Part shown: in pieces, positions 17,712 through 41,211 of the stretch
How positions within the stretch are numbered: the stretch's first letter is position 1
Layout: every line of letters starts with the position of its first letter
NCBI GenBank assembly: GCA_016214955.1
Contig: JACRMN010000010.1
Coordinates: 62,001-126,000, forward strand
DNA length: 64,000 bases
DNA from: Deltaproteobacteria bacterium
GTDB taxonomy: Bacteria; Myxococcota; Myxococcia; Myxococcales; Anaeromyxobacteraceae
Reading direction: 5' to 3'
Notes under the pieces: model-generated
Database searches by the model: none
Seen by the model: only the letters and a program-made list of their open reading frames with translations
What the model was told of the DNA's origin: nothing
Made by a program: the position numbers and the translations under genes

Positions 17712-19066
<1,355 letters not shown>

Positions 19067-19070
<4 letters not shown>

Positions 19071-19609
19071 GTCCTGGGCTCCCGGTCCTGCGCCTGGTCG
19101 AGCAGCGTCCGGCAGTCGGCACAGAGCTGCCCGCCCTTGCGATCCACGTCCCGAAGTCCGGCCGAGCGCGACATGGCGCACTCGGGCCGCGAGCAGTGGG
19201 TGAGCCCGAGCGCGTGCCCGAGCTCGTGCACCGCCTCCTTGGCGAGCCGCTCCCAGAGCACCCGCCGGTCCACCAGCACCGGCTCGGAGAGGCGCGCCGT
19301 CGAGACCACCGCGGCGCGGCCGTTGAGCTGCGCCTCGCCGAACACGAAGGTGAGGATGGGGATGAAGAGATCGACGTCGGTCATCCCCAGCACCCTGCCC
19401 TCCCCTGGCCCCTCCCGGAGCAGCCACTCCAGCATCCGGCCCGAGGCGTGCTGCTTGCGGCGCACGTCGAGGGTGCCCTGGGGCCGGGCCTGGCCCGCCC
19501 AGACGGCCGCCGGGACCCGGAAGGCCCGCTCCACGTGCAGCCGGACGTGCTCCATCGCCTCCCTCTCGATCTGCCCTTCGCCGATCCACCAGAGCCAGAG
19601 CCCGCCCAC
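19067..19609 (-). CDS. amzA: Archaemetzincin (peptidase family M54)
   Basis: This 180-aa protein carries the full archaemetzincin signature: H128-E-L-G-H132-A-L-G-L-T-H138-C139, then C144 and M146, and the distal C163-A-D-C166 pair. These hold one catalytic and one structural zinc in this family. The protein has no signal peptide and is probably cytosolic. The start is GTG with GAGGGG upstream. It is inserted between a sensor kinase and its sigma-54 regulator: the kinase ends 12 bases upstream and the regulator overlaps by four bases. Family members are often found without known substrates; the context suggests a role in turnover within this signalling route. Confidence 0.93.
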
Positions 19610-19621
19610 GCGGCCCCTCGC

Positions 19622-21343
19622 TCAGGCTCCCGGCGCCCGCACCGCCGGCAGCCGGATGGTGAAGGTGGTGCCCTTGCCCACCTCGCTCCTCACCAGCACG
19701 GTCCCGCCGTGCCGCTGGATGATCCCGTAGACCACCGAGAGGCCGAGCCCGGTGCCCTTCTCCTTGGTGGTGAAGAAGGGGTCGAAGATGTGGGGCAGGT
19801 GCTCGGCGGCGATGCCGGGGCCGGTGTCGGTGATGGCCGCGTCCACCCATGCGCCGTCGGCGCTCATCCCGGTGACCACGGCGATCTTCCCGCCCTTCTG
19901 CATGGCCTCGCAGCCGTTGAGGATCACGTTGACCAGCGCCTGGCGCAGCTGGCCGAAGTCGGCGCGCACCGGGGCCACCTGGCCGAGCCGCTTCTCGAGC
20001 TGGTGGCCCTGGATGGCGATCTGGTGGGCGATGAGCTGGAGCGACTCGGCGACGGCCACGTTGAGATCCACCTCGCGGAGCTCCAGCGGGCGCTCGCGGG
20101 CGAAGTCCAGGAGGTTGCGGACGATGGCGCTGCAGCGCTCGGTCTCGCGCTGCACCAGGGCCAGGTTCTTGGCCATGGTCTTGCGCCGGGCCTCGTCGGG
20201 GACGGCCTGGTCCACCTCGCGGAGGATGAGCTTGGCGAAGGTGAGGATGCCGGCCAGGGGGTTGTTGATCTCGTGGGCGATGGAGGCCGAGAGGCGGCCC
20301 AGCGAGGAGAGCTTCTCCGACTGCACCAGGGCGGCCTGGGCGGCCTTGAGGTCGGCGGTGCGCTGCTCCACCTGGAGCTCCAGCCCGGCCTGCAGCGCCG
20401 CCAGCTCGGCCTTGGTGCGCCGCAGCGAGCGGGTCATGTCGTTGAAGGAGGCGGCCAGGAGCCCCAGCTCCCCCTTGGAGCGCACGTGGATCTCCACCGC
20501 CAGCTCCTCGCTGGCGACGCGGCGCGTCCCGTCCACCAGCGCCGACACCGGCAGCACCACGTGGCGCCGGGCCAGCCAGAGGAAGAACCCGGCCAGCAGC
20601 ACCACCCCGAGCGCGGTGCCCACGATGCTCCAGCCGCGGAACTCGGCGATGCGCCGGTCCACCTCGCGGAGCGACACCGCCACGTCGAGGACCCCCAGCA
20701 CCTGGGCCTCGCGGGGGTGGACGTGGCAGGAAGCGCCGGAGCAGCGGGCCTCGTTGTAGATGGGCTTGAGGAAGGCCATGGCCCGGTGCTCGTTGGTCCC
20801 GAAGACGCGGGCGCGGGAGCCGCTGGGCAGGCGGGAGATGGGGCGGTCGGCCTGGTGGCAGACGAAGCAGGCCTCGGCGTTCTTGTCGACGAGCGAGTTG
20901 ACGTCGCGCGGATCGGTGGAGAAGGTGATGCGCCCTTCCTTGTTGAAGATGCGCACCTTCTCGGTGCCGGGCTCGGCGCCGATGACCCGCATGATCTCGT
21001 AGGCGTCCTCGCGCCTGTCCTCCAGCATGGCCCGGTGGGTGGCCCGCTCGATGGTGTGGCTGAAGAGCTCGGCGCCGGCCTCGACCTGCTCCATGAGCGA
21101 GTCCTGGAAGCGGGCCTCGGTGACGGCGAAGACCACCACCCCCACCAGCGTGAGCACCGCCGTCAGCGACAGGAGCTTGGTGGAGAGCCGGTGGCGCCAG
21201 GGGATGGCGACCGGAGGGCGCAGGACGAAGTCGCCGGTGCGATCCCCCACGCTGGCGACGTCGAGCTCCGCCTCGTCCTGCACGCCCAGCCCCCCACCTT
21301 CGGCTACCTTGGGCTCGGCGGGAGTGGCCCCTTCCCCTGGCAT
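19622..21343 (-). CDS. Sensor histidine kinase with two c-type haem motifs in its periplasmic domain
   Basis: This 573-aa protein has membrane helices at about 52-75 and 239-258. The periplasmic domain between them contains C159-F-V-C162-H163 and C201-x4-C206-H207. The first is a normal c-haem motif; CX4CH is also used in some cytochromes. HAMP, a coiled coil, HisKA with phospho-His H357 (ASIAHEINNPLAG) and HATPase_c with DTGPGI and GTGLGLS follow. It is first in the operon with archaemetzincin and the NtrC-type regulator. Sensing of redox potential, NO, O2 or electron flow by haem is likely but unproven. Confidence 0.93.
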   Translation of the reverse strand: MPGEGATPAEPKVAEGGGLGVQDEAELDVASVGDRTGDFVLRPPVAIPWRHRLSTKLLSLTAVLTLVGVVVFAVTEARFQDSLMEQVEAGAELFSHTIERATHRAMLEDRREDAYEIMRVIGAEPGTEKVRIFNKEGRITFSTDPRDVNSLVDKNAEACFVCHQADRPISRLPSGSRARVFGTNEHRAMAFLKPIYNEARCSGASCHVHPREAQVLGVLDVAVSLREVDRRIAEFRGWSIVGTALGVVLLAGFFLWLARRHVVLPVSALVDGTRRVASEELAVEIHVRSKGELGLLAASFNDMTRSLRRTKAELAALQAGLELQVEQRTADLKAAQAALVQSEKLSSLGRLSASIAHEINNPLAGILTFAKLILREVDQAVPDEARRKTMAKNLALVQRETERCSAIVRNLLDFARERPLELREVDLNVAVAESLQLIAHQIAIQGHQLEKRLGQVAPVRADFGQLRQALVNVILNGCEAMQKGGKIAVVTGMSADGAWVDAAITDTGPGIAAEHLPHIFDPFFTTKEKGTGLGLSVVYGIIQRHGGTVLVRSEVGKGTTFTIRLPAVRAPGA

Positions 21344-24420: not shown

Positions 24421-27400
24421 ATGCACGCACAGCCCACCCGTCGGACCTCGCGCCTCGCCCTGGTCGCGCTGTCATTGCTGGCCGCCCCGAGCACGCGGGC
24501 CCAGATCGCCGGCGAGAACGTGAACATGGTCTCGGGCGTCGAGTGGCCCGGCGGCGACCCGTTCCTGCAGCGGCAGAACGAGCCCACGGTCGCGGTGTCG
24601 TCGGCCAACCCGCAGCACCTGATGGCCGGGGCCAACGACTACCGGTCGGTGGACGTGCCGGTCCCGGCCGAGCACTTCGCCAAGATGAAGTCCACGCCCG
24701 ATGCCTGGCTGGGCGTCTTCAAGTCGCTCGACGGCGGCCAGACCTGGCGGAGCACCCTGCTCCCCGGCTTCCTCGGCGACTCGAGCGCTGCCGGCGCGGC
24801 CTCGCCGCTGCGGGTCCCGCTCCAGCTCACCCGGGCCGACGGCTCGAAGGAGAGCATCGACCTGCCGGCCTGCGCCGACCCGGTGATGCGGGCCGGCACC
24901 GACGGCATGTTCTACTACGCCGGCATCAACTTCTCGCGCGACAAGCGGGCCAACCGGCTCTTCGTCGCCCGCTACCTCGACCTCAACGACCGCGAGAACG
25001 GCGACGCCTCCAGGGCCGAGCCCGGCGACCCCATCCGCTACGTCGACACGGTGGTGATCTCCGCCAACCTGCCGGCCCGCCCCGACGTCTTCATCGACAA
25101 GCCCTGGATCGCCGTGGACGTCCCGCGCGCCGGCGCCGCCACCTGCACGGTCACGACCAGGAACGCCCGGGGCGAGCCGGTGACGCGCTCCTTCCCCGGT
25201 GGCACCGTGTACGCGGCCTGGGCCGAGTTCGCGCAACCCGAGGAGCAGTCCAGCACCGTCATGTTCACCTGGTCGAGCAACTGCGGCCAGACCTGGGTGC
25301 CGCCCTTCCCCATCAGCAGCAAGAACAGCGTCCTCTCCCAGGGCGTGAGCCTGGCCGTGGAGCCCATCTCGGGCCGCGTCTACGCCGCCTGGCGGCGCGC
25401 CGCCACGCCGCTGGCGCCCAAGCAGACCGACGCCATCATGGCCACCCGCTCCGAGGGGCGGAAGCGCCACTTCAGCCACGCCCGCGTGGTGGCCCCGCTG
25501 GCCGCCAACCCGTTCGACCAGGGCACCTCCTACGGGAGCTTCCGGTCCAACGTCTTCCCGTCGCTGGCCATCTCCAGCGACGGCACCCAGAGCTGGGCCC
25601 ACGTCGCCTTCGCCGACAGGCAGCCGAGCGGCGACGCCCGGGTGGTGCTGTCCTCGGCCCGCGTGCACCCCCGGCCGAGCGGCGACGACGACGACGACGA
25701 TCCCGAGGAGAACGACGACGAGACCAGGGTGGGCTGGTCGCGGCCGATCGCCGTCGACGCCCAGCCCTCGGTCGACGACTCCAACCACCTCTTCACCCGC
25801 GGTCACCAGTTCATGCCGGCGCTCACCTCCAGCCAGGGGCGCCTGCTGCTCACCTGGTACGACTCCCGCTTCGACCACACCCGGCGGTACTTCCGGCCGC
25901 GACAGCCGGTGAACGGCGAGTTTCCCGGCGGCAAGTTCTACGACGAGGAGCTGGCGCCCATCGGCGACTACTTCCAGCAGCTGGAGGCCGACTACCGGGC
26001 CGGCGCGGCGGTCGAGGGGCCGGTCTTCAACCGCTGGCTGGCCGACTCCTTCGGCAACGCCGACCCGGCCACCGGCAAGGTGGCGGTGGTGGACCAGGCC
26101 ACCGGCGCGCTGGTCTCCACCACGCTCACCAGCTGGGTGAAGGTGCGCCACAGCGTCGAGGTGCGCGCCGCCATGGCCGACGCCGGCCCGAGCCCGGCCT
26201 TCCGGTCGATCACCGTCTCCCGCTACCCCTTCGGCGCCTCGGGCGAGGGCAACCCGGCCCCGGGCACGGCCCTCACCGTCCCGCGCTTCGACGTGACGGG
26301 GGCGCAGGCGGCCCCGGGCAGCGACCAGGCTGCGCTCCTCACCCTGGTGGACGGCGGCGGCGGGCTGCAGCACCTGGCGCAGTTCCAGATGAACACGCCC
26401 AACTTCCCCATCTTCAGGAACGGCACGGTGGCCTTCATCGGCGACTACATCGACGTCGCCGGGCCGCAGTTCGTGGTGAAGAACGGCGCCTGGAGCTTCA
26501 ACACCGCCCGGAGCGCCACGCCGGTGTTCCACGCGGTCTGGACCTCGAACCAGGACGTGCGCACCCCGCCCGTCGACCGATCCACCGGCCTGCCGGCCTG
26601 GGACCAGTACGTACCGCCGGGCATGGGCGGGGCGCTCAGCAAGTACGACGGGCGCAGCACCACCCAGGCCTGCGACCCGCGCTTCCCGGCCTTCGCCGGC
26701 AGCCGCGACCAGAACATCTACACCTCGCGCATCACCGACGGGCTCTCGGTCTCCACGCCCCAGAACGCCAAGCCGCTGGCCGAGCCCGACGCCTCCGGCC
26801 ACCTCGCCCCCGTCCAGCGTTCCTTCGTCATCTCGGCCAACAACGCCACCGCCCGGCCGATGACCGTGGCCTTCTCGGGCGCGCTGCCCGCGGGACAGGG
26901 CGGCGTGGAGCTCTCCTGGTCGGCCGCCGGGCCCTTCACCGCCGCCCCCGCCGTCGGTGACATCGTGGTGCCCGCCTTCTCCTCGGTGAGCCAGACGCTC
27001 TTCGCCCGCCTCACCGGGACCAGCTTCAACCCCGGCGCCACCATCCTGGCCCGGGTGGACCAGGCAGGCGCCTGCGCCACCGCGGCCGGCGGCTGCGCCT
27101 CGGCCACGCTGACCCTCAACCCGCCCGTGGCGCTGGCTGCCCTGCTGCAGCCCGACGGCGTGCCCTCGAGCCTCGACATCCGCGCGGGCGAGCGGCTCCA
27201 GGCGGTGACCTTCGACCGCTTCCTCTCCGATCCCAACTGGTCGAACCCCAACTGGTCCAATTCCAACCCGAACCCCAACTGGTCGAATCCGAACTGGTCC
27301 AACCCCAACTGGTCAAACCTCGGCTACACCGGGCCCAACTGGTCCAACCCCAACTGGTCGAACCTGGGCTTCACCAATCCGAACTGGTCGAACCCCAACT

Positions 27401-30327
27401 GGTCCAATCCCAACTGGTCCAATCCCAACTGGTCCAACCCCAACTGGTCCAACCCCAACTGGTCCAATCCCAACTGGTCCAACCCCAACTGGTCCAATCC
27501 CAACTGGTCCAATCCCAACTGGTCCAACCCCAACTGGTCCAATCCCAACTGGTCCAACCCCAACTGGTCGAACACCGCCATCGCCGACCTGAACTCGTCG
27601 GTGCAGAACACCGGCAACACCACCACCGCCTACTCGGTGAAGCTGGTGCGCGACGAGAGCAAACCGGTGAGCATCACCGGACCTATCCAGCTGCTCATCA
27701 CCAAGATCTACGAGACCCCGACGCTCGACGGCTGCTTCGTCCGCCCCAGGCCCAGCTTCCAGCTGGCGGTCAACGTGCCCGACATGCCCATCGTGCCCTC
27801 CACCGCCTCGGTGGACCCCCGCCTCGATGCGGCCACCGGCTTCGCCACCGTCACCCTGGCGCCCGGTGAGCGGGCCCTCATCACCCTGCGGGCCCAGGCC
27901 AGCCTCACGCAGATGGCCGACCTCGGGAAGGCGGTGGCGCCGGCCACCGTCCCGCAGGACTTCCCGGCCAACACCGTCACCTACGACGCGGTCCGGGGCG
28001 TCGCCTCCTCCCCGGTCTCGCTGCCGGGCAGCATCTCCACCACCACCGCCCTCGCGCCCCAGGGGCCAACCGCCTTCAGCGCCTTCCGCGCCACCGTGAC
28101 CGCGGCCGGCACGCCCACCGGCACCGTCACCTTCGTGCGCACCCGGGCCGGCGTCAGCCGCACTGCGGCCCTCGTGCCGCTGACCGCGGGGGTCGCCGAC
28201 GTCTCCATCTCACCGGTGCTGGCCCAGGGCGAGAGCCTGGTCGCCTACTACGGCGGCGACCTCCGGTACGACCCGAGCACCTCGGGCGCCTACGCCCCCA
28301 CGCTCAGCAACACCCAGGTCGCGCTCTCCACCAGCCCGAGCCCCTGGGTCTCCGGTCCGCTCACCGTCCAGGCCCAGGTGAGCTCGCTCGGGCCCGACAT
28401 GGACATGACCGCCGCGGTGGTGGCCGGCGCCACCGTCACCTTCCACATCGACGGCACGCCGCACACCGTGGCCATGTCGCCGGCCGGCGGCACGCGGGTG
28501 ACCTACACCACTCCGGCCCTCCCCGCCGGCATCCACACCGTGAGCGCCCGGTTCGATGGCCTCGCCTCCTGGCTCCCGAGCCAGGCGAGCGCCACGGTGG
28601 GCGGGCAGGCCTTCACCGCCAACGCCGGCTACGTCTCGCAGGACGGCGGCTCGTCCTTCGGCGTCTGGGTCAGGGACGCTGGCGGGAGCCCGCTTTCGGG
28701 CGCCACCGTCACCGCCACCGGCACGCCCGGCGGCGTCACCGGCCCGGACGGCTGGTACGTCCAGGCCACACCCGACCTGGCCCCGGGGACCACGGCCACC
28801 TTCTCGGTGGTGGCTGGCGGCTCGACGGTGAGCGGCAGCGTCACCGTCCCCTCGGCGCCCAGGCTCACCTCGCCCGCCACCGGCGCCACCTTCGCCTCCT
28901 CAGCCTCGATCCCCTTCCGGCTCGTGACCGAGACCCCGGGCGTGGCCCCAGGTCAGTTCGAGGTGGTCGCGAAGTGGCTGGACGCCGGCGGCGTCGAGCA
29001 CCTCTCGGGCGGCTGGGTGCCGTCGCCGGCCGAGGACACCCTCACGCCGGGCGGCCCGTTCTGGACCGGCCAGGTCAACCTGACGATCCCGGCGCCGGGC
29101 ATGACCCCCACCGTCTACATCCGGTCGGTGGCCGACGGGACCATCGGGATGAGCCCGGCCCCCGGGTCGAGCCTCTACTACTCGCACGCCGGGACCAACT
29201 CGGCCGTCCGGATCGTCACCGTCCTCCGGCCGGTGGGAGTCGCCGACGCGGTGGTTGCCCACCCCGGCTCGGGAAGCCTGCTGGTCGCGGGCGCCATCGC
29301 CGACAGCTTCGGCGGGCCCGGGACCGACATCACCGTGCAGGGGCTGAGCCTGGCGTCCGGCACCGGGTGGCTCGCGCAGTACACCAGCCCGCTCTACGAG
29401 CGGGCGGCGGCCATCGCCACCGACGCCGGAGGCGACGCCTACGTGGTGGGGCGGCAGACCGGCGGCACGCCGACCCAGCAGATGCTGGTGCAGAGGGTGA
29501 GCGCCACCGGCACGCCGCTGTGGACCGTCCTGGTCCCGGATGAGTGGGGCGTCGGCATCGCCTTCGACCAGGCCAGCGACCGGCTCTACACGGTCGGCCA
29601 CCTCCGGGTCGGCGGGCTGGAGGACACCATCCTGCACCGCCTCGACCCGGCCACCGGTGCGGTGCTGGCCACCCAGCGCTTCAACCTGGCGAGCTACAAC
29701 CTGCCCTCCGGGCTCGCGCTCGACCCGACCGGCAACCTGTACGTGTCGGGCACCGTCCACCCGCCCACCGGCTGGGAGGACGGCTACCTGGCACGGCTCG
29801 ACGCCGACCTCAACCTGGTGTGGAGCTCCTCCTTCGGCGGGACCGTCGGAGCGGGCGCCTCGGCGCGCGCGGTCGCCGTCGGTCCCGGCGGGGAGGTCTA
29901 CGTCGGGGGCTGGGACACCTACGTGTCGAGCGCCGACTTCCAGAGCTTCGTCGCCCGGTACAATCCCTCCACCGGCGCGCGCCTGTGGCGGACCGGCACG
30001 GCCGGCAACGTGGTGCCCGCAGGGATGACGGCGGACGCGGCGGGCAACCTCTACCTGGCCGGCACCACCAGCCGCGACCTCACCTCCGGGCTGGCGCTCG
30101 CCAGCCAGGATTCCGCGGTGCTCAGCTACGCGCCGGCGGGCGCGCTCCGCTGGGCCCGGCGGGCCGGGCAGGAGTCAGGCACAAGCTCGAGCGGCGCGGC
30201 CGGCATCGCCCTCTCCGGCAGCGACCTGTACGTCTCCGGCGCCTACGTCGGCGGCTTCTTCGGGCTCCAGGCGCCGGACGGGGCCGGCTTCGTCCTCCGG
30301 TACACCACCGGCGGAACGCAGGACTGA
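24421..30327 (+). CDS. Giant secreted multidomain protein with sialidase-like N-terminus, PNWSN repeats, Ig-like domains and C-terminal propeller
   Basis: This 1968-aa protein starts with a signal peptide (about residues 1-28). Residues 40-830 resemble BNR/sialidase-type beta propellers, with Asp-box-like S-L-D-G-G-Q-T-W (102-109) and SNCGQTW (about 287-293). An acidic run (GDDDDDDPEEND, near 421) may bind calcium. Residues 937-1051 are the PNWSN pentapeptide array. Strand-rich Ig-like domains follow (about 1080-1390), a carboxypeptidase-regulatory-like domain (GVWVRDAGGSPLSGATV, about 1410-1480), another Ig-like part, and repeats such as ALDPTGNLYVSG and AVGPGGEVYVGG (about 1600-1968) that fit a C-terminal SBBP/NHL-type propeller. 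It should be exported by Sec, but no anchor or sorting signal was recognised. The start has GGAGG at the right spacing. The function is unknown; adhesion, cell-surface structure or glycan binding are possible. Confidence 0.88.
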   Translation: MHAQPTRRTSRLALVALSLLAAPSTRAQIAGENVNMVSGVEWPGGDPFLQRQNEPTVAVSSANPQHLMAGANDYRSVDVPVPAEHFAKMKSTPDAWLGVFKSLDGGQTWRSTLLPGFLGDSSAAGAASPLRVPLQLTRADGSKESIDLPACADPVMRAGTDGMFYYAGINFSRDKRANRLFVARYLDLNDRENGDASRAEPGDPIRYVDTVVISANLPARPDVFIDKPWIAVDVPRAGAATCTVTTRNARGEPVTRSFPGGTVYAAWAEFAQPEEQSSTVMFTWSSNCGQTWVPPFPISSKNSVLSQGVSLAVEPISGRVYAAWRRAATPLAPKQTDAIMATRSEGRKRHFSHARVVAPLAANPFDQGTSYGSFRSNVFPSLAISSDGTQSWAHVAFADRQPSGDARVVLSSARVHPRPSGDDDDDDPEENDDETRVGWSRPIAVDAQPSVDDSNHLFTRGHQFMPALTSSQGRLLLTWYDSRFDHTRRYFRPRQPVNGEFPGGKFYDEELAPIGDYFQQLEADYRAGAAVEGPVFNRWLADSFGNADPATGKVAVVDQATGALVSTTLTSWVKVRHSVEVRAAMADAGPSPAFRSITVSRYPFGASGEGNPAPGTALTVPRFDVTGAQAAPGSDQAALLTLVDGGGGLQHLAQFQMNTPNFPIFRNGTVAFIGDYIDVAGPQFVVKNGAWSFNTARSATPVFHAVWTSNQDVRTPPVDRSTGLPAWDQYVPPGMGGALSKYDGRSTTQACDPRFPAFAGSRDQNIYTSRITDGLSVSTPQNAKPLAEPDASGHLAPVQRSFVISANNATARPMTVAFSGALPAGQGGVELSWSAAGPFTAAPAVGDIVVPAFSSVSQTLFARLTGTSFNPGATILARVDQAGACATAAGGCASATLTLNPPVALAALLQPDGVPSSLDIRAGERLQAVTFDRFLSDPNWSNPNWSNSNPNPNWSNPNWSNPNWSNLGYTGPNWSNPNWSNLGFTNPNWSNPNWSNPNWSNPNWSNPNWSNPNWSNPNWSNPNWSNPNWSNPNWSNPNWSNPNWSNPNWSNTAIADLNSSVQNTGNTTTAYSVKLVRDESKPVSITGPIQLLITKIYETPTLDGCFVRPRPSFQLAVNVPDMPIVPSTASVDPRLDAATGFATVTLAPGERALITLRAQASLTQMADLGKAVAPATVPQDFPANTVTYDAVRGVASSPVSLPGSISTTTALAPQGPTAFSAFRATVTAAGTPTGTVTFVRTRAGVSRTAALVPLTAGVADVSISPVLAQGESLVAYYGGDLRYDPSTSGAYAPTLSNTQVALSTSPSPWVSGPLTVQAQVSSLGPDMDMTAAVVAGATVTFHIDGTPHTVAMSPAGGTRVTYTTPALPAGIHTVSARFDGLASWLPSQASATVGGQAFTANAGYVSQDGGSSFGVWVRDAGGSPLSGATVTATGTPGGVTGPDGWYVQATPDLAPGTTATFSVVAGGSTVSGSVTVPSAPRLTSPATGATFASSASIPFRLVTETPGVAPGQFEVVAKWLDAGGVEHLSGGWVPSPAEDTLTPGGPFWTGQVNLTIPAPGMTPTVYIRSVADGTIGMSPAPGSSLYYSHAGTNSAVRIVTVLRPVGVADAVVAHPGSGSLLVAGAIADSFGGPGTDITVQGLSLASGTGWLAQYTSPLYERAAAIATDAGGDAYVVGRQTGGTPTQQMLVQRVSATGTPLWTVLVPDEWGVGIAFDQASDRLYTVGHLRVGGLEDTILHRLDPATGAVLATQRFNLASYNLPSGLALDPTGNLYVSGTVHPPTGWEDGYLARLDADLNLVWSSSFGGTVGAGASARAVAVGPGGEVYVGGWDTYVSSADFQSFVARYNPSTGARLWRTGTAGNVVPAGMTADAAGNLYLAGTTSRDLTSGLALASQDSAVLSYAPAGALRWARRAGQESGTSSSGAAGIALSGSDLYVSGAYVGGFFGLQAPDGAGFVLRYTTGGTQD
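27232..27573 (+). repeat. Intragenic tandem repeat of 15 bp encoding 20 PNWSN pentapeptides
   Basis: Twenty copies of the CCC-AAC-TGG-TCC-AAY unit encode PNWSN. Two occur first, then SNPN, three more, a variant LGYTG, two more, a variant LGFTN, and finally 13 in direct succession (27379-27573). The protein sequence is almost invariant. At DNA level the variation is mainly at synonymous sites: AAC/AAT in the Asn before Pro, TCC/TCG/TCA in Ser, and a few CCG for CCC. AAT is rare elsewhere in this GC-rich region. The variants keep an aromatic residue followed by Thr at the W-S position, which shows selection on the pattern. Confidence 0.97.
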
Positions 30328-32148: not shown

Positions 32149-33135
32149 GTGTCGCCCGGCGGGAGCGGGCTGCGCTACCTGGCGCCGGCCCCGGTGCCGG
32201 GCCAGGTGGCAGTGGCCCTCCTGGCCGCCGGGGGCGCCGGGGGGCTGCGCTTCCCCTTCTACGAGCGGCTGGAGATCGGGCGCGACGACCCTGCCCGCGT
32301 GCTCACCCCGGGGCTCCTGCTCGTCGAGGACGGGCTGGTCTCGCGCCACCACTGCGTCGTCACCCGCCGTCACGACGGGCACTGCACCGTGCGCGATCTC
32401 TCCCGCAACGGCACCCGGCTCGGCGGGCGCCGGCTGGTGCCCAACGTCGAGACCGAGTGGCGCACCGGCGACGCCCTCGTGCTCGGCGCCCACCGCAGCT
32501 TCCTCCTCGACGGCGACGGCGCCGGGGAGGCATCCCTCTCGGGCGTGGGCATGTCCACCATCCCCCGTGCCGACCGCACCATCGCCACCGTGCTGGTGGG
32601 CGACATCCGCGACTACACCGTGCTGGTGCGCCGCAGCCTCTCCGAGGAGATGCAGCGCGCGGTGCGCTCGGTCTTCGAGGCCCTGACCGCCGGGGTACTG
32701 GCTCACGGAGGGACCGTCAAGGAGTTCCAGGGCGACGCCATCCTGGCCTACTGGGAGGGGGATGCCGGCGGCTGCCAGGCGGCGGAGGCCTGCCGCGCCG
32801 CCCTGGCGCTCGACCGCCTGGCCTGCGACATCGCCGCCGACCCGGCGCGCTGGCCGGTGGCCGACCACCCGCTGGAGCTGCACTGGGCCCTGTCCACCGG
32901 GCTGGTGCTCATCGACAGCATCGGCCACGGCACCCCGGTGGGCCTCTCGATGATGGGTGAGCCGGTGGTGCGCGCCTTCCGCATGGAGAAGCACGCCGGC
33001 GGCGCGGCCGGGCGCATCCTGGCCTGCCAGGCCACCCGCGACGCGGCCGGAGCTGCATTCACGTTCCGTGACCTGGGTTCCGTCCAGGCCAAGGGCTTCG
33101 ACCGGCCGGACCGCATCCACGCCCTGGTGCGGTAG
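32149..33135 (+). CDS. FHA domain-class III nucleotide cyclase fusion
   Basis: This 328-aa protein has an FHA domain (about residues 35-120) with IGRDD, VSRHHCVV and LSRNGTRLGG, the phosphothreonine-binding signature. A class III cyclase domain follows (145-320) with metal-binding D152 (VGDIRDYT) and D196 (FQGDAILAYW), and a Lys at 191 that could read adenine. The transition-state Asn seems replaced by Val (GEPVVRAFRM), so activity needs testing. The start is GTG at 32149. The Ser/Thr kinase downstream could provide the phosphothreonine read by the FHA domain. Confidence 0.88.
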   Translation: MSPGGSGLRYLAPAPVPGQVAVALLAAGGAGGLRFPFYERLEIGRDDPARVLTPGLLLVEDGLVSRHHCVVTRRHDGHCTVRDLSRNGTRLGGRRLVPNVETEWRTGDALVLGAHRSFLLDGDGAGEASLSGVGMSTIPRADRTIATVLVGDIRDYTVLVRRSLSEEMQRAVRSVFEALTAGVLAHGGTVKEFQGDAILAYWEGDAGGCQAAEACRAALALDRLACDIAADPARWPVADHPLELHWALSTGLVLIDSIGHGTPVGLSMMGEPVVRAFRMEKHAGGAAGRILACQATRDAAGAAFTFRDLGSVQAKGFDRPDRIHALVR

Positions 33136-33159
33136 CCGGGGAGCCCGGGGCCGGCGTGC

Positions 33160-33165
33160 TAGGAT
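33160..33165 (+). promoter_or_regulatory. -10 element TGcTAGGAT for the Ser/Thr kinase gene
   Basis: TAGGAT, preceded by TGC as in an extended -10, ends ten bases before the ATG at 33176. No Shine-Dalgarno sequence precedes that start. The transcript would be nearly leaderless. Confidence 0.4.
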
Positions 33166-33175
33166 GCGCCGTCGG

Positions 33176-36100
33176 ATGATCTGCGCCGTCTGCGAGCAGG
33201 AGAACGAGCTGGGCGCGAAGCACTGCGCGCGCTGCTCCTCGCTGCTCCCGCCTCCTCCCGGCAGCCCCGGCTCCGCCGCGGCCGGCGCGACCCTGGAGGC
33301 CTCGCGCCCGACCCTGGAGGCCCTCCTCCGGGAGGTGGCCGCCACCCCCGCCGGCGAGGGAGCCCCGGCGGCCTCGTTACTCGCCCCGGGTTCCTCGGTC
33401 GGCAGGCGCTACGAGATCGTGCGCCAGCTGGGAAAGGGCGGCATGGGCGCGGTCTACCTGGCCCGCGACCGCGAGCTCTCGCGGCTGGTGGCCCTCAAGG
33501 TCATCGCCCCGCACCTGGCCGCCGAGGAGTGGGTGGTGGACCGCTTCAAGCGGGAGATCCAGCTCTCGTCCATCGTCACCCACCCCAACGTGCTGCGGGT
33601 CTTCGACCTCTCCGAGGCCGACGGCCTGCGCTTCCTGACGATGCAGTACATCGAGGGAGACACGCTGGCCGGGCTGATGAAGAGGCACCGGCCCCTGCCC
33701 ATCGAGTGGTCGCTGGCCCTCTTCCGGCAGATCGGCGCCGGCCTGCAGGCGGCCCACGAGAAGGGCGTGCTCCACCGGGACCTGAAGCCCCAGAACGTGC
33801 TGGTGGATCGGGACCGGAGGGCCTACCTCACCGACTTCGGCCTGGCCACCTCGGCCTCGCTCTCGCCGCTCACCCAGACCGGCGCGCTGCTGGGCACGCC
33901 CCACTACATGTCGCCGGAGCAGGTGAAGGGGCAGCAGGCCGACGTCCGCTCCGACGTCTTCAGCATGGGGGTGCTGCTCTTCGAGATGCTGGCCGGGGAG
34001 CTGCCCTACGCCGGCGACAGCGTCTACGCGGTGATGATGGCCCGGACCCGCCCGCTGGCGCGCAGCGCCAGCGACATCAACCCCGAGGTGCCGCGCCACC
34101 TCCAGGCGCTCCTCGACCGCTGCCTGGCCATCGGGCCCGCCGACCGGTACGGCTCGGTGGCCGAGCTGCTCGCCGACCTCGACGCCTCCCAGGTCCGCGC
34201 CCCTCCCCGGCGGCCGGTCGGAGCCGCGGCCGCGGGGCCCGGAGCCGCCGCCTCCCCGGCGAACGGCGTACCGCGCTGGCTGGCGTGGGCGGCGGTGCCG
34301 GTGGCGCTGGCGCTGGCGGCGCTCGCCGGCTGGTGGCTCTGGCCCCGGCCCGGGCCGGCCTCGCAGGTGACCAAGACGGTGCTCATCGGCGACTTCGACA
34401 ACCGCACCGGCGAGGACGTCTTCAATGGCACGCTGGAGCCGGCTTTCGGGCTGGCGCTGGAGGGCGCGGCCTTCGTCAGCTCCTACGCTCGCGCCGCCGC
34501 CCTCCGGGTGGCCGACCAGCTCAAGCTCGACGGCGCCGGACTGCCGGAGAAGCGAGCCCGGCTGGTGGCCCAGCGCGAGGGGATCTCGGTGGTGGCCACG
34601 GGCTTCGTGGAGCGGGACGGCGCCGGCTACCGGGTGGGCATCCGCGCCGTGGACGCCTTCACCGGGCAGAAGATCGCCGAGGAGAGCGTGGAGTCGGCCG
34701 ACCGGGCCGCCACGCTTGGCGCTGCCACCAGGCTGGCCGCCCGGGTGCGAGGCGCCCTCGGCGACGTGACCCCGGAGGCGGTGCAGCTCAAGGAGGGCGA
34801 GACCTTCAGCGCCGCCTCGCTGGAGGCGGCCCACGAGTACAGCCGGGCCAACGACCTGGCGCTGTCCCAGGGCAAGTACGACGAGGCCCGCCGGCACTAC
34901 CTGGAGGCCATCCGCCTCGACCCGGGGATGGGGCGCGCCTACAGCGGCCTGGCGGCCATCGAGTACAACCGGGGCCGCGCCGCCGAGGCCGAGAAGCAGC
35001 TGGGGGCGGCGATGTCCCGGCTCGACCGCATGACCGAGCGGGAGCGGCAGCGCACCCGCGGCCTCTGGTTCATGCTCAGGCGCGACGCCGACAAGGCCAT
35101 CGACGCCTACGGCGCGCTGGTGAAGCAGTACCCGTCCGACAGCGCCGGCCACGCCAACCTGGCCCTGGCCCAGGTGATGCGGGGCCGCTTCGCCGAGGCC
35201 CTGGAGCCGGCCCGCCGCGCCCTCACCATCCACCCCCGCAACGTGCCGCAGCGCAACAACCTGGGGTTCTTCGCCATGTACGCCGGGGACCACGCGGCGG
35301 CCATCGCCGAGCAGCAGCGGGTGCTGGAGCTCAACCCCGGCTTCGTCAACGGGTACATCGGCCTGGCCCTCGCCCGCCAGGCGGCCGGGGAGCGCGACGA
35401 GGCCCTCGCGACCTGGAGGCGGCTGGAGGCGCTGGGACCGGGCCCCCGCTCGGCCGCCCTCGAGGGGCTCGCCGACTCGGCCCTGGCGGAGGGGCGCGTG
35501 GCGGAGGCCGCCTCCCTCCTGGAGAAGGGCGCGGAGGGCGACCTGCTGCAGCGGGAGCCGGAGGCCGCGGCACGCAAGCTGGCGATGCTGGCCGACGCCG
35601 AGCTGGCCCGTGGCAGGTTTGCGGCGGCGGCCGCGGCCGCCGAGCGCGCCCTGGGGGCCGGCCAGCAGGACTTCATCCAGCTCCTCGCCGGGCTGGCCCT
35701 GGCCGAGGCGGGAAAGGGCCGCCGTGCGCTGGCCCTGGCCGAGGCCATGGACGGGCGCGTCGAGCCGCTCCCCCGCACCTGGGCCCGCGTCCTCCGCGGT
35801 GCGGTGGCCCGGAGGAAGCGCCAGCACGCCGAGGCCGTGGCCCAGCTCCGCGGCGCCGTGCAGCAGCAGGACCACTGGCTGGCTCGCTACCACCTGGCGC
35901 TGGCCTACCTGGACGCCGGGTCGGCGGCGCAGGCCGCCGACGAGCTGGAGCAACTCGAGAAGCGGCGCGGCGAGGCCACCGACCTCTTCATCGAGAACGC
36001 GCCCACCTGGCACCACCAGGCCTCCGTCTCCTACTGGCAGGGACGGGCCCGGGAGGCGAGCGGGAGCCCCTCGGCGCGGGACGCCTACCGGGCCTTCCTG

Positions 36101-36187
36101 GCCTCGAAGCGCGCCGACGAGGAGCCCCTCGTGGCCGACGCCCGCAGGCGGCTGGCGGCCCTGGAGGCAAGTAACCCGGCCCGGTGA
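33176..36187 (+). CDS. Ser/Thr protein kinase with N-terminal zinc ribbon, membrane helix and TPR repeats
   Basis: This 1003-aa protein starts with a zinc-ribbon (C3-x2-C6, C17-x2-C20). The kinase domain (about 79-340) has the Gly-rich loop GKGGMGAVYLARD, catalytic lysine in ALKVI, HRDLKPQNVL (about 200) and DFGLA (about 221), and is of the bacterial Pkn type. A membrane helix (WLAWAAVPVALALAALAGWW, about 365-390) leads to an extracytoplasmic region with a domain (about 395-540) and many TPRs to the end, as in myxobacterial kinases. The ATG at 33176 gives a start just before the zinc ribbon; an ATG at 33164 is alternative. Confidence 0.92.
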   Translation: MICAVCEQENELGAKHCARCSSLLPPPPGSPGSAAAGATLEASRPTLEALLREVAATPAGEGAPAASLLAPGSSVGRRYEIVRQLGKGGMGAVYLARDRELSRLVALKVIAPHLAAEEWVVDRFKREIQLSSIVTHPNVLRVFDLSEADGLRFLTMQYIEGDTLAGLMKRHRPLPIEWSLALFRQIGAGLQAAHEKGVLHRDLKPQNVLVDRDRRAYLTDFGLATSASLSPLTQTGALLGTPHYMSPEQVKGQQADVRSDVFSMGVLLFEMLAGELPYAGDSVYAVMMARTRPLARSASDINPEVPRHLQALLDRCLAIGPADRYGSVAELLADLDASQVRAPPRRPVGAAAAGPGAAASPANGVPRWLAWAAVPVALALAALAGWWLWPRPGPASQVTKTVLIGDFDNRTGEDVFNGTLEPAFGLALEGAAFVSSYARAAALRVADQLKLDGAGLPEKRARLVAQREGISVVATGFVERDGAGYRVGIRAVDAFTGQKIAEESVESADRAATLGAATRLAARVRGALGDVTPEAVQLKEGETFSAASLEAAHEYSRANDLALSQGKYDEARRHYLEAIRLDPGMGRAYSGLAAIEYNRGRAAEAEKQLGAAMSRLDRMTERERQRTRGLWFMLRRDADKAIDAYGALVKQYPSDSAGHANLALAQVMRGRFAEALEPARRALTIHPRNVPQRNNLGFFAMYAGDHAAAIAEQQRVLELNPGFVNGYIGLALARQAAGERDEALATWRRLEALGPGPRSAALEGLADSALAEGRVAEAASLLEKGAEGDLLQREPEAAARKLAMLADAELARGRFAAAAAAAERALGAGQQDFIQLLAGLALAEAGKGRRALALAEAMDGRVEPLPRTWARVLRGAVARRKRQHAEAVAQLRGAVQQQDHWLARYHLALAYLDAGSAAQAADELEQLEKRRGEATDLFIENAPTWHHQASVSYWQGRAREASGSPSARDAYRAFLASKRADEEPLVADARRRLAALEASNPAR

Positions 36188-38407: not shown

Positions 38408-40213
38408 TCACCAGCCGCAGGTGCGGCCCCTGTTCTGCTCCGCCAGCCAGGTCCGCAGCGGGGCGAAGTACTCCAGCAGCGCCGAGGGGTCGGCGCGGCG
38501 CTCGCCGGTGAGGGCCTGGAGGGCGTCGGCCCAGGGGCGGGAGGCGCCCAGGGCCAGCATCGCCGCGAGGCGGGCGCCGGCCTCGCGACTGCCGGCGATG
38601 GAGCACTGGTGGAGCGGCCCCGTCTGGCCGGCGGCGCGGCACAGCGCCCGGTGGAACTGGAACATGTAGACCGAGGCCAGGAAGTAGCGCGTGTAGGGCG
38701 TGTGGGCGGGCACGTGGTACTTGGCGCCGGGGTCGAAGTCGGCCTCGCTCCGGGCCACGGGCGCCTCCACCCCCTGCACCTTGCGGCGCAGCTCCCACCA
38801 GGCCGCGTTCCAGCGCTCCGGCGGGACCTTCCCCGAGAACACGTCCCAGCGCCACTGGTCGATGAGCTTGCCGAAGGGCAGGAAGGCCACGCGGTCGAGC
38901 GCCACCCGCATCTGGAAGTTCACCAGCGCCCGCTCGTCGGCCGGCGCCTCACGGGCCAGCCCCAGCCTGGCGTAGTAACCGGGCGTCATCGACAGCACCA
39001 GGGCGTCGCCGATGGCCTCGTGGAAGCCCTCGTTGGCGCCGGTGCGGAAGAGGTGGGGCTGGGCCTGGTAGGCCCGCTGGTAGTAGTTGTGGCCCAGCTC
39101 GTGGTGGACGACGCGCAGGTCCTCCTCGGTGGGGCGGATGCACATCTTGATGCGGAGGTCGTCGCGGGCGTCGAGGTCCCAGGCGCTGGCGTGGCAGACC
39201 ACCTCGCGGTCGCGGGGCTTCACCAGCATGGAGCGCTCCCAGAACGTGGCCGGCAGCGCCGGGAGGCCGAGCGAGGTGAAGAAGGACTCGCCGGTGCGGA
39301 CCATGCGCTCCGGGGTCCAGCCCTGGGCCCGGAGCGCACCGTCCACGTCGAGCGGCGCCACCCCGGGGTAGGGCTCGAGGAACGGGTAGAGCGCGTCCCA
39401 CTGCTGGGCCCACATGTTGCCGAGGACGTGCGCCGGGATGGGCTTGCCGTCGGGCACCCGCTCCTTGCCGTACCGCTCCTGGAGCCGGGCGCGCACGTGG
39501 CAGTGCAGCTCCCGGTAGAGCGGCAGCATCTCGGCCCAGAGCCGGTCCACGTCGGCCTCGAAGGCGGCCGGCGACATGTCGAAGCCGGAGCGCCACAGCT
39601 CGCCCATGTCGCGGAAGCCGATCTGGCGGGCCCCCTCGTTGCCCAGCTCCACCAGCCGCCGGTAGTCGGACCGCAGCGGCGCCCCCACGGCGTGCCAGCC
39701 CTGCCAGGTGTCGAGCAGCTCCTCCCAGCTCGCGCTGCGCGACATGGTCTCCTCCAGCTGGCCGAGGTCGCGGCAGGTGCCGGTGCCGCCGGGGCCGCAG
39801 TACTTCCCCTTGCCGTAGCTGCCCTCGAGGCGCGAGCCCACCGACGCCAGCTCCGCCCGCCGGGCCGGGTCCACCGGCGCCGGCAGCTTGCCGCCGGTGC
39901 GCAGCAGCTGCAGCGCCCGGGCAGTCTCCGGATCGAGCCGCAGGCCGCGGAAGCGCTCGGCCTCCAGGATGGCCCGGGTGGTGGCGGCCATCTGCGCCTC
40001 GGTGGCCCAGGCCGCCTGCCGCTCGGTGTCGCCGGTGATGAAGGTGCCGGCGATCCACTGGGCGGTGTTCTCGCGGTAGGCGAGCGGCTCGAGCTCGGCG
40101 TTGATCCGGCCCACGAAGGCGCGGGCCTCGGCGGGCGTGGCCGGGCGGCCAGGGGAGGCGGGCGCGGCGGACAGCGGCAGCAGCAGGGCGTGTGCGAGGG
40201 CGATGGCGAGCAT
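38408..40213 (-). CDS. M2-family peptidyl-dipeptidase (ACE-like), secreted
   Basis: This 601-aa protein has a signal peptide (residues 1-17, ALAHALLLPLSAAPA) and the zinc site HELGH in VVHHELGHNYYQ, followed by NEGFHEAIGD, where the Glu is the third ligand. YHVPAHTPYTRYF and HRALCRAA are characteristic of angiotensin-converting enzyme-like M2 peptidases, which remove C-terminal dipeptides. The length matches the single-domain bacterial enzymes. It is probably periplasmic or secreted. The promoter element at 40222-40227 suggests a leaderless transcript. The start ATG at 40213 fits the signal peptide. Confidence 0.93.
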   Translation of the reverse strand: MLAIALAHALLLPLSAAPASPGRPATPAEARAFVGRINAELEPLAYRENTAQWIAGTFITGDTERQAAWATEAQMAATTRAILEAERFRGLRLDPETARALQLLRTGGKLPAPVDPARRAELASVGSRLEGSYGKGKYCGPGGTGTCRDLGQLEETMSRSASWEELLDTWQGWHAVGAPLRSDYRRLVELGNEGARQIGFRDMGELWRSGFDMSPAAFEADVDRLWAEMLPLYRELHCHVRARLQERYGKERVPDGKPIPAHVLGNMWAQQWDALYPFLEPYPGVAPLDVDGALRAQGWTPERMVRTGESFFTSLGLPALPATFWERSMLVKPRDREVVCHASAWDLDARDDLRIKMCIRPTEEDLRVVHHELGHNYYQRAYQAQPHLFRTGANEGFHEAIGDALVLSMTPGYYARLGLAREAPADERALVNFQMRVALDRVAFLPFGKLIDQWRWDVFSGKVPPERWNAAWWELRRKVQGVEAPVARSEADFDPGAKYHVPAHTPYTRYFLASVYMFQFHRALCRAAGQTGPLHQCSIAGSREAGARLAAMLALGASRPWADALQALTGERRADPSALLEYFAPLRTWLAEQNRGRTCGW

Positions 40214-40221
40214 GGCGCGGC

Positions 40222-40227
40222 ACGGTA
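40222..40227 (-). promoter_or_regulatory. -10 element TACCGT for the M2 peptidase gene
   Basis: On the minus strand TACCGT lies eight bases before the ATG at 40213, without a Shine-Dalgarno sequence. It has the same arrangement as the elements at grxC and the CPBP gene. Confidence 0.3.
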
Positions 40228-40320
40228 GACCGGATCCAGCCCGGTGGCCCTCGGCCCTGGTGGGGCCCCCGGCGCCACGTGCCGCTGGCGCCATGGGCCG
40301 ATCCGCGCTGAGATGGACGG

Positions 40321-41211
40321 GTGCCACGCGGCCCGGCTGCGCAGCCTCACCTCCCTGCGGCGGACCTGCGCCCGGTGGACCGGCTCCTCCTCGCCGGCAG
40401 CGCCGCCCTGGCAGCGGCGACGCTCGCGCTCCATCCCCGGCCGTTCCCGCTCCTCGTCCCGCTGGCCGCTGCCGCCCTGGCCGTGCCGGTGCTGGCCGCC
40501 GCCGCGCGCCGCTGGCCGGCGGCGGCGCCGCTGCGCGACCTGCAGGCGATGCTCCACCTCGCGGTGCTCTTCAGCCTCTGCGGCCCGGTCCTCGCCGTGG
40601 GCACCAGCGCCCGGTGGGACGCGGCGCTGGCCGCCGCCGACCTCCGGCTCTTCGGCGCACTGCCGGAGCGCTGGCGCGGCCTCGGCGGGCGGCCCGGCTG
40701 GCTGGTGGACCTCTCGTCGGCGGCCTACTTCAGCTATTACCTGCTGCCGCCCGCCCTGGTGGCGGGGCTGTGGCGCGACGGCCGGCGCGCCGAGCTCGAT
40801 CGACTGCTGCTGGCCATGGCCCTCACCCTGCTGCTCTCCTACGGCGGCTACTTCGCCCTGCCCGCCACCGGGCCCCGGGTGGCGCCGGCCGACGCCGACC
40901 GGCTCCTGGGAGGCGGTGCGCCGAGCCGGGCGCTGCGCGCCTTCCTCACGCTTGCCGAGGTCAACCTGCTCGACGCCTTCCCCAGCGGCCACACCGCCCT
41001 GTCGCTGGTGCTGCTGCACCGGGGGTGGCGCCTCTTCGCCGCCTGGCGGGTGCCTCTCGCGCTGGTGGTGGGAGGCATCGTCTTCTCCACCGTCTACCTC
41101 TCGCTCCACTACGTCGTGGACCTCGCCGCCGGCGCCCTGCTTGCCGCTGCGGTCCCGTTCCTCCTCCCGCCGCTCGAGCGGCTGCTGTCGCGCCCACCCG
41201 CGCCGAGGTGA
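40321..41211 (+). CDS. PAP2-superfamily membrane phosphatase
   Basis: This 296-aa protein has about six membrane helices and the PAP2 signature: ALPATGPR, DAFPSGHTALSL (PSGH) and STVYLSLHYVVDLAAG, where the His and Asp complete the active site. Such enzymes remove phosphate from lipids (phosphatidate, undecaprenyl or inositol lipids) on the outer face of the inner membrane. The start GTG at 40321 has only a weak ribosome site. The E2-like gene follows four bases later, so the two are co-transcribed. Confidence 0.86.
   Translation: MPRGPAAQPHLPAADLRPVDRLLLAGSAALAAATLALHPRPFPLLVPLAAAALAVPVLAAAARRWPAAAPLRDLQAMLHLAVLFSLCGPVLAVGTSARWDAALAAADLRLFGALPERWRGLGGRPGWLVDLSSAAYFSYYLLPPALVAGLWRDGRRAELDRLLLAMALTLLLSYGGYFALPATGPRVAPADADRLLGGGAPSRALRAFLTLAEVNLLDAFPSGHTALSLVLLHRGWRLFAAWRVPLALVVGGIVFSTVYLSLHYVVDLAAGALLAAAVPFLLPPLERLLSRPPAPR

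Follow-up and report, generated by a model that had tools for sequence, protein, structure and literature searches.

The window (the whole stretch of DNA analyzed, 64,000 nucleotides) contains a gene for a protein of 1968 residues, inside which the sequence-only reading had reported 20 PNWSN pentapeptides and two variant units, LGYTG and LGFTN. The open reading frame and the unit count confirm this description (Table 1). Of the 20 exact units, 18 share one reading phase. The codons are mixed (CCC/CCG, TCC/TCG/TCA, and AAC/AAT), giving seven different 15-mers. Despite this codon variation, no amino acid difference exists among the 20 units, which bears out the earlier description of a nearly invariant peptide. 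Tandem Repeats Finder scored the array at 411 and the runner-up array in the window at 72. A two-unit PNWSN pattern occurs at a single place in the genome, and a search of 194 other genomes of the same phylum did not find it.

Table 1. Features of the gene with the PNWSN array and of its surroundings in the window.
Feature	Position	Strand	Basis or remark
Two-component pair (sigma-54-dependent response regulator and histidine kinase)	17712–21343	−	
Gene for the 1968-residue protein	24421–30327	+	Open frame; start codon ATG at 24421, preceded by GGAGG a few bases away
Probable signal peptide, MHAQPTRRTSRLALVALSLLAAPSTRA followed by Q	24421–24501	+	Assigned by eye, without a predictor; similar start (LARA followed by Q) in the homolog L018/L031
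BNR/Asp-box (sialidase-like) beta-propeller region, approximate limits	24550–26810	+	Asp-box motifs close to residues 102 and 285
Ig-like beta-sandwich preceding the array	26818–27117	+	AlphaFold2 model residues 15–114, pLDDT mostly 80–90; conserved in homologs
Pentad array: 20 PNWSN, LGYTG, LGFTN, and one SNPN step	27232–27573	+	AlphaFold2 pLDDT about 33
Interruption, one four-residue step (SNPN)	27262–27273	+	
Variant unit LGYTG	27319–27333	+	
Variant unit LGFTN	27364–27378	+	
Unbroken run of 13 contiguous PNWSN	27379–27573	+	
Ig-like beta-sandwich after the array, motif DxxxxxxNTGNT	27580–27897	+	AlphaFold2 model residues 269–374; conserved in homologs
Big_3_5 bacterial Ig-like domain	28081–28296	+	Pfam PF16640, 9.4e-12 (whole-protein value)
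SBBP beta-propeller repeat, best of the second, C-terminal propeller	29995–30072	+	Pfam PF06739, 4.4e-7
Ser/Thr kinase with TPRs	32957–36187	+	
M2-type peptidase (angiotensin-converting enzyme family), near full-length	38408–40327	−	PF01401, 1e-212

The host protein of the array, which is presumably secreted, resembles sialidases only in its Asp-box motifs and in weak BNR_2 (PF13088) matches; the latter were obtained in homologs (9e-4 to 4e-6) and lie under the family cut-off, and the Pfam search of the window protein gave no match in the propeller region. For the C-terminal propeller, NCBIfam matches to LipL53/SBBP and delta_60 are weak and under the cut-off. The same domain set occurs in BNR/Asp-box sialidase-like secreted proteins with Big_3_5. 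However, none of the library descriptions examined for such proteins includes a pentad array between Ig-like domains.

Homologs were searched for with the flanking domains, the array being excluded. With the part preceding the array as the query, relatives were found in three other genomes among the 24 in the family; two of them, L018 and L021, extend into the array slot, with 18 and 17 ANLSN units there, respectively. An array-free alignment of the flanks, scanned against 84,980 species genomes, gave 43 loci, chiefly in Acidobacteriota and also in Aminicenantes, Myxococcota, and Pseudomonadota. In the phylum of one Acidobacteriota host, 17 of the 396 sampled genomes have the gene, indicating a sporadic distribution. 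Whole-genome searches of 12 hosts found one copy in 11 and two copies in one, and a plasmid search with the flank gave no match. The host genomes of the family are mostly metagenome-assembled. One Pseudohongiella genome (G203) has two paralogs (L058 and L071), both with PGIFN units and with flanks only about 60% identical.

Nearly all homologs that cover the slot have a pentad array there, between two Ig-like domains and after a BNR-like propeller. The window protein fits this order (BNR-like region, Ig-like domain, pentad array, and Ig-like domain with DxxxxxxN-x-GNT). Each lineage has its own near-uniform five-residue unit, and 36 unit types were found among 58 proteins (54 after four repeat sightings or near-copies are set aside). 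The PD-type units are PDIEN, PDISN, PDIAN, PDVEN, PDVSN, PDVAN, PDITN, PDIQN, PDFEN, PDLSN, PDLAN, and PDPNN; other P-type units are PNVSN, PNISN, PNITN, PSITN, PAIQN, PAILN, PSVGN, PGIFN, PGIYN, PTMFN, PNAPN, PALLN, PALFN, PFVIN, PRIEY, and PTRRH. Units without Pro at position 1 are ADIEN, ANLSN, QNISN, QDLAN, and IFTPK; a six-residue unit, PTVSGD, and further types also exist. In a first set of 31 arrays, Asn occupies position 5 in all 31 and Pro occupies position 1 in 25. Slot units without Asn at position 5 are IFTPK, present as scattered units (L061 and L062), PTVSGD (L066), PRIEY (L103), and PTRRH (L099). The PNWSN array thus represents, for one lineage, a repeat block that occupies a fixed slot in a little-described family of secreted proteins. 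The earlier remark that no described family has this repeat stands for the PNWSN unit itself in the libraries and papers searched, and the search of papers by unit letters gave no mention of PNWSN or the units of its relatives. It does not stand for the wider family of lineage-varying arrays, which includes recognized pentapeptide repeats.

Uniformity within arrays is held by purifying selection across the family, a conclusion that is well supported. For all in-phase pentads from the first to the last exact unit, variants included, the median pS is 0.70 and pN is 0.12; among like units only, pN is 0.029, a value biased by selecting these units for likeness. Synonymous codons are near random while the peptide is nearly constant, indicating that the uniformity of the unit is selected. 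Close orthologs keep the array peptide while their codons approach random pairing, and uniformity is therefore not merely a result of array youth. For example, L043 and L049 have 94% amino acid identity in the flank and nearly identical array peptides with nearly randomized codons (same-codon share of 0.66 in the flank, 0.55 in the array, and 0.50 under random pairing). The claim that the unit is under selection, made initially from the window alone, is thus upheld by the family-wide divergence and by the orthologs. Synonymous divergence in the window array (0.43) is lower than in the family, in part owing to the single codon of Trp and to the G+C content of 73% in the window.

At the DNA level, neighboring units resemble each other no more than distant units do, and recent tandem duplication is accordingly rejected as the family-wide source of uniformity. 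No evidence of gene conversion between units emerged; the codons at matching ortholog units are near random pairing. For spider silk genes, intragenic homogenization is reported (PMC3933166). The array might instead be a young, neutral, minisatellite-like coding expansion without a role, which is a frequent origin of tandem arrays and would accord with only seven 15-mers among the 20 window units. Nevertheless, the synonymous saturation with a conserved peptide, the lack of closer likeness between neighbors, the slot common to several phyla, and the interruptions kept in place all count against neutral expansion. This explanation is already largely refuted, and we regard it as very improbable.

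The flank tree, built by maximum likelihood from 49 sequences, requires at least 34 unit changes (4, 13, 15, 21, and 2 at positions 1 to 5, respectively), with about four changes involving Ala or Gln at position 1. In this tree, the window protein is sister to two ANLSN proteins (L031 and L032) with support of 100/100, and these three are nested in a larger group of Pro-type arrays that has weaker support. This placement suggests that PNWSN is more likely an older Pro-type unit altered at its third position than a descendant of ANLSN. In the PDIEN/PDISN/PDIAN/PDVEN group, odd units (AEVYN near the start and VRVAN-like near the end) are fixed in position, and the ordinary units differ throughout; this pattern fits coordinated replacement better than loss and regrowth. 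The unit was apparently replaced wholesale, in most units of an array together.

The period of five with a fixed aromatic residue had also been likened to the pentapeptide-repeat beta-helix. Pentapeptide repeat proteins (PF00805; HglK, MfpA, Qnr, Rfr23, and Alr5209) share with the family the period of five, polar residues at i−1 and i+1, a hydrophobic residue at i in most units, and Asn at i+2. However, the family differs in having Pro at i−2 in most units, near-perfect unit uniformity, and an array placed between Ig-like domains. The likeness is genuinely supported by the sister ANLSN arrays in the same slot, which match PF00805 at 1e-49; ADIEN (2e-13) and PDLSN (6e-7) also match. PDFEN (6e-4) is just under the PF00805 cut-off and above those of Pentapeptide_3 and Pentapeptide_4. 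The likeness does not extend to PNWSN in Pfam: PNISN, PDIEN, PNITN, QNISN, QDLAN, and PNWSN have no pentapeptide model above the cut-off, and the window array has none at E 1 or better. PNWSN does not fit the published consensus, (A/C/S/V/T/L/I)(D/N/...)(L/F)(S/T/...)(G/D/E/N/...). Pro at i−2 is outside it, and its short form does not include Trp at i, a residue nevertheless present there in known structures. The run of 13 contiguous pentads in the window exceeds the minimum of eight expected of a pentapeptide repeat protein. Three other candidates were rejected. Extensin_1 matches (to 1e-16) are always under the cut-off and reflect the composition of Pro-rich repeats. The N-glycosylation sequon N-x-S/T, present in PNWSN, ANLSN, and PNITN, is no common rule, being absent from PDIEN, PAIQN, and PGIFN. 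Finally, a coil register of four pentads is not apparent from the spacings of interruptions in the PDIEN group, which range from 7 to 12 units (counted by eye) without a fixed multiple of four.

The PNWSN array itself might form a canonical quadrilateral beta-helix with Pro at i−2. The PNWSN register obeys the pentapeptide rule at all other positions, and the backbone angles at i−2 (phi about −70, psi about 147) are suitable for Pro. Moreover, Trp is observed at i and Asn is accepted at i+2 in pentapeptide repeats (PMC7337050). Besides the sister ANLSN matches, the family profile has its best match in the PDB to solenoids of the 4yfo/4yc5 type (3e-14), and the pentapeptide-repeat structures that it matches are 4yfo, 2o6w, and 2j8k. 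The 4yfo and 4yc5 proteins are designed pentad beta-solenoids of the beta1 series with Ala-type units, and they are not known to have Pro in every repeat. A solved-structure search with the N-terminal part gave no match, and Foldseek of the window model gave nothing at E 0.001 and only weak Ig-like and complement domains. Against a helix for PNWSN, the C-delta of Pro clashes with the preceding residue in its left-handed i+2 conformation. In a repeating-backbone model (coarse, with eight starting points), the canonical quadrilateral helix closes without Pro near the published angles (score of 0.04), whereas with Pro at every i−2 no good solution was found (strained, 13.6, with the side chain at position i turned out). 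A coil containing four Trp and four Pro would also require a core about 60% larger in volume than a coil with Leu and Ala in their place. The units PDPNN, PNAPN, and PTRRH in the same slot have no large hydrophobic core residue and could not form such a core. In the AlphaFold2 models, the two flanks are beta-sandwiches, and neither the PNWSN nor the PNISN array has strands or other regular structure (pLDDT about 33); this absence is weak evidence given the perfect repeats, the gappy alignment of 25–30 rows, and the lack of an ANLSN control. The beta-helix proposed for PNWSN is thus not borne out, and we consider it unlikely. The array is best seen as a pentad spacer related in position to pentapeptide repeats, and its putative Pro-turn form is probably not the canonical helix.

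The family combines a common slot, a lineage-uniform unit, selected uniformity, repeated wholesale change of the unit, and flanks that are Ig-like by model. In the architecture of propeller, Ig-like domain, pentad array, and Ig-like domain, the array would extend a linker of period five (P1-x-x-x-N5) that joins two beta-sandwich domains. This linker probably forms a regular, extended, and solvent-exposed stalk that keeps the propeller head off the C-terminal region. For units of the P type (PNWSN, PDIEN, and PNISN), each Asn-Pro step probably introduces a kink or turn, one per pentad, and the resulting coil would be repetitive but not a canonical pentapeptide helix. In the same slot, A-type units (ANLSN and ADIEN) may fold as a canonical right-handed quadrilateral beta-helix. 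With moderate confidence, we interpret the window array as the PNWSN version of this conserved pentad spacer, probably an extended stalk in a Pro-turn form. Elastin (VPGXG) and flagelliform silk (GPGXX) are Pro-turn pentapeptide elastomers, and the array is similar in its probable Pro-containing turn every five residues and its long, uniform organization. However, the array is bacterial, not Gly-rich, and under strong purifying selection with a lineage-varying unit, and the likeness is without demonstrated homology. The low-confidence AlphaFold2 model is compatible with elastomer-like disorder but does not prove it. Neither the uniformity of the unit nor the joint change of units is explained by a simple flexible stalk.

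Recognition or self-association is the most interesting alternative to the stalk. The uniform unit could be a recognition surface, in which repeated identical sites bind a periodic partner, whether a polysaccharide of the cell surface, another protein, or the protein's own kind, and changes of the unit follow that partner. Uniformity is also selected at positions 2 and 4, which would be exposed in a solenoid, and position 4 is the most changeable between lineages. In addition, some proteins have one to three pentads at a second site, in a loop of the C-terminal Ig-like domain, and these tend to echo the protein's own main unit (permutation P of 0.0016 among 22 representatives, approximate as related representatives are counted as independent). 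The echo is exact in L037, L053, L060, L068, and L069. L033, whose slot holds just two units and whose second site also holds two, is likewise among the proteins with an echo. However, second-site pentads are absent from the window protein, no neighbor of the window gene has an obvious functional connection, and no binding partner was found. A recognition surface is a tentative and rather unlikely explanation. A more specific form, in which the unit is a lineage-specific code and identical pentads stack on or bind those of partner molecules or a periodic partner, is more doubtful still. If true, uniformity within arrays would be selected, and units would change only as a whole set, in rare switches.

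With one slot, more than 35 near-perfect pentad units, and selection set against drift at the codon level, the family resembles a natural experiment in the evolution of repeat proteins. The repeated wholesale switches include exchanges between the Ala type, whose units match a known fold, and the Pro type, whose units apparently do not fit that fold. The family makes it testable how all repeats of an array change in concert and whether units that differ greatly can serve one job.
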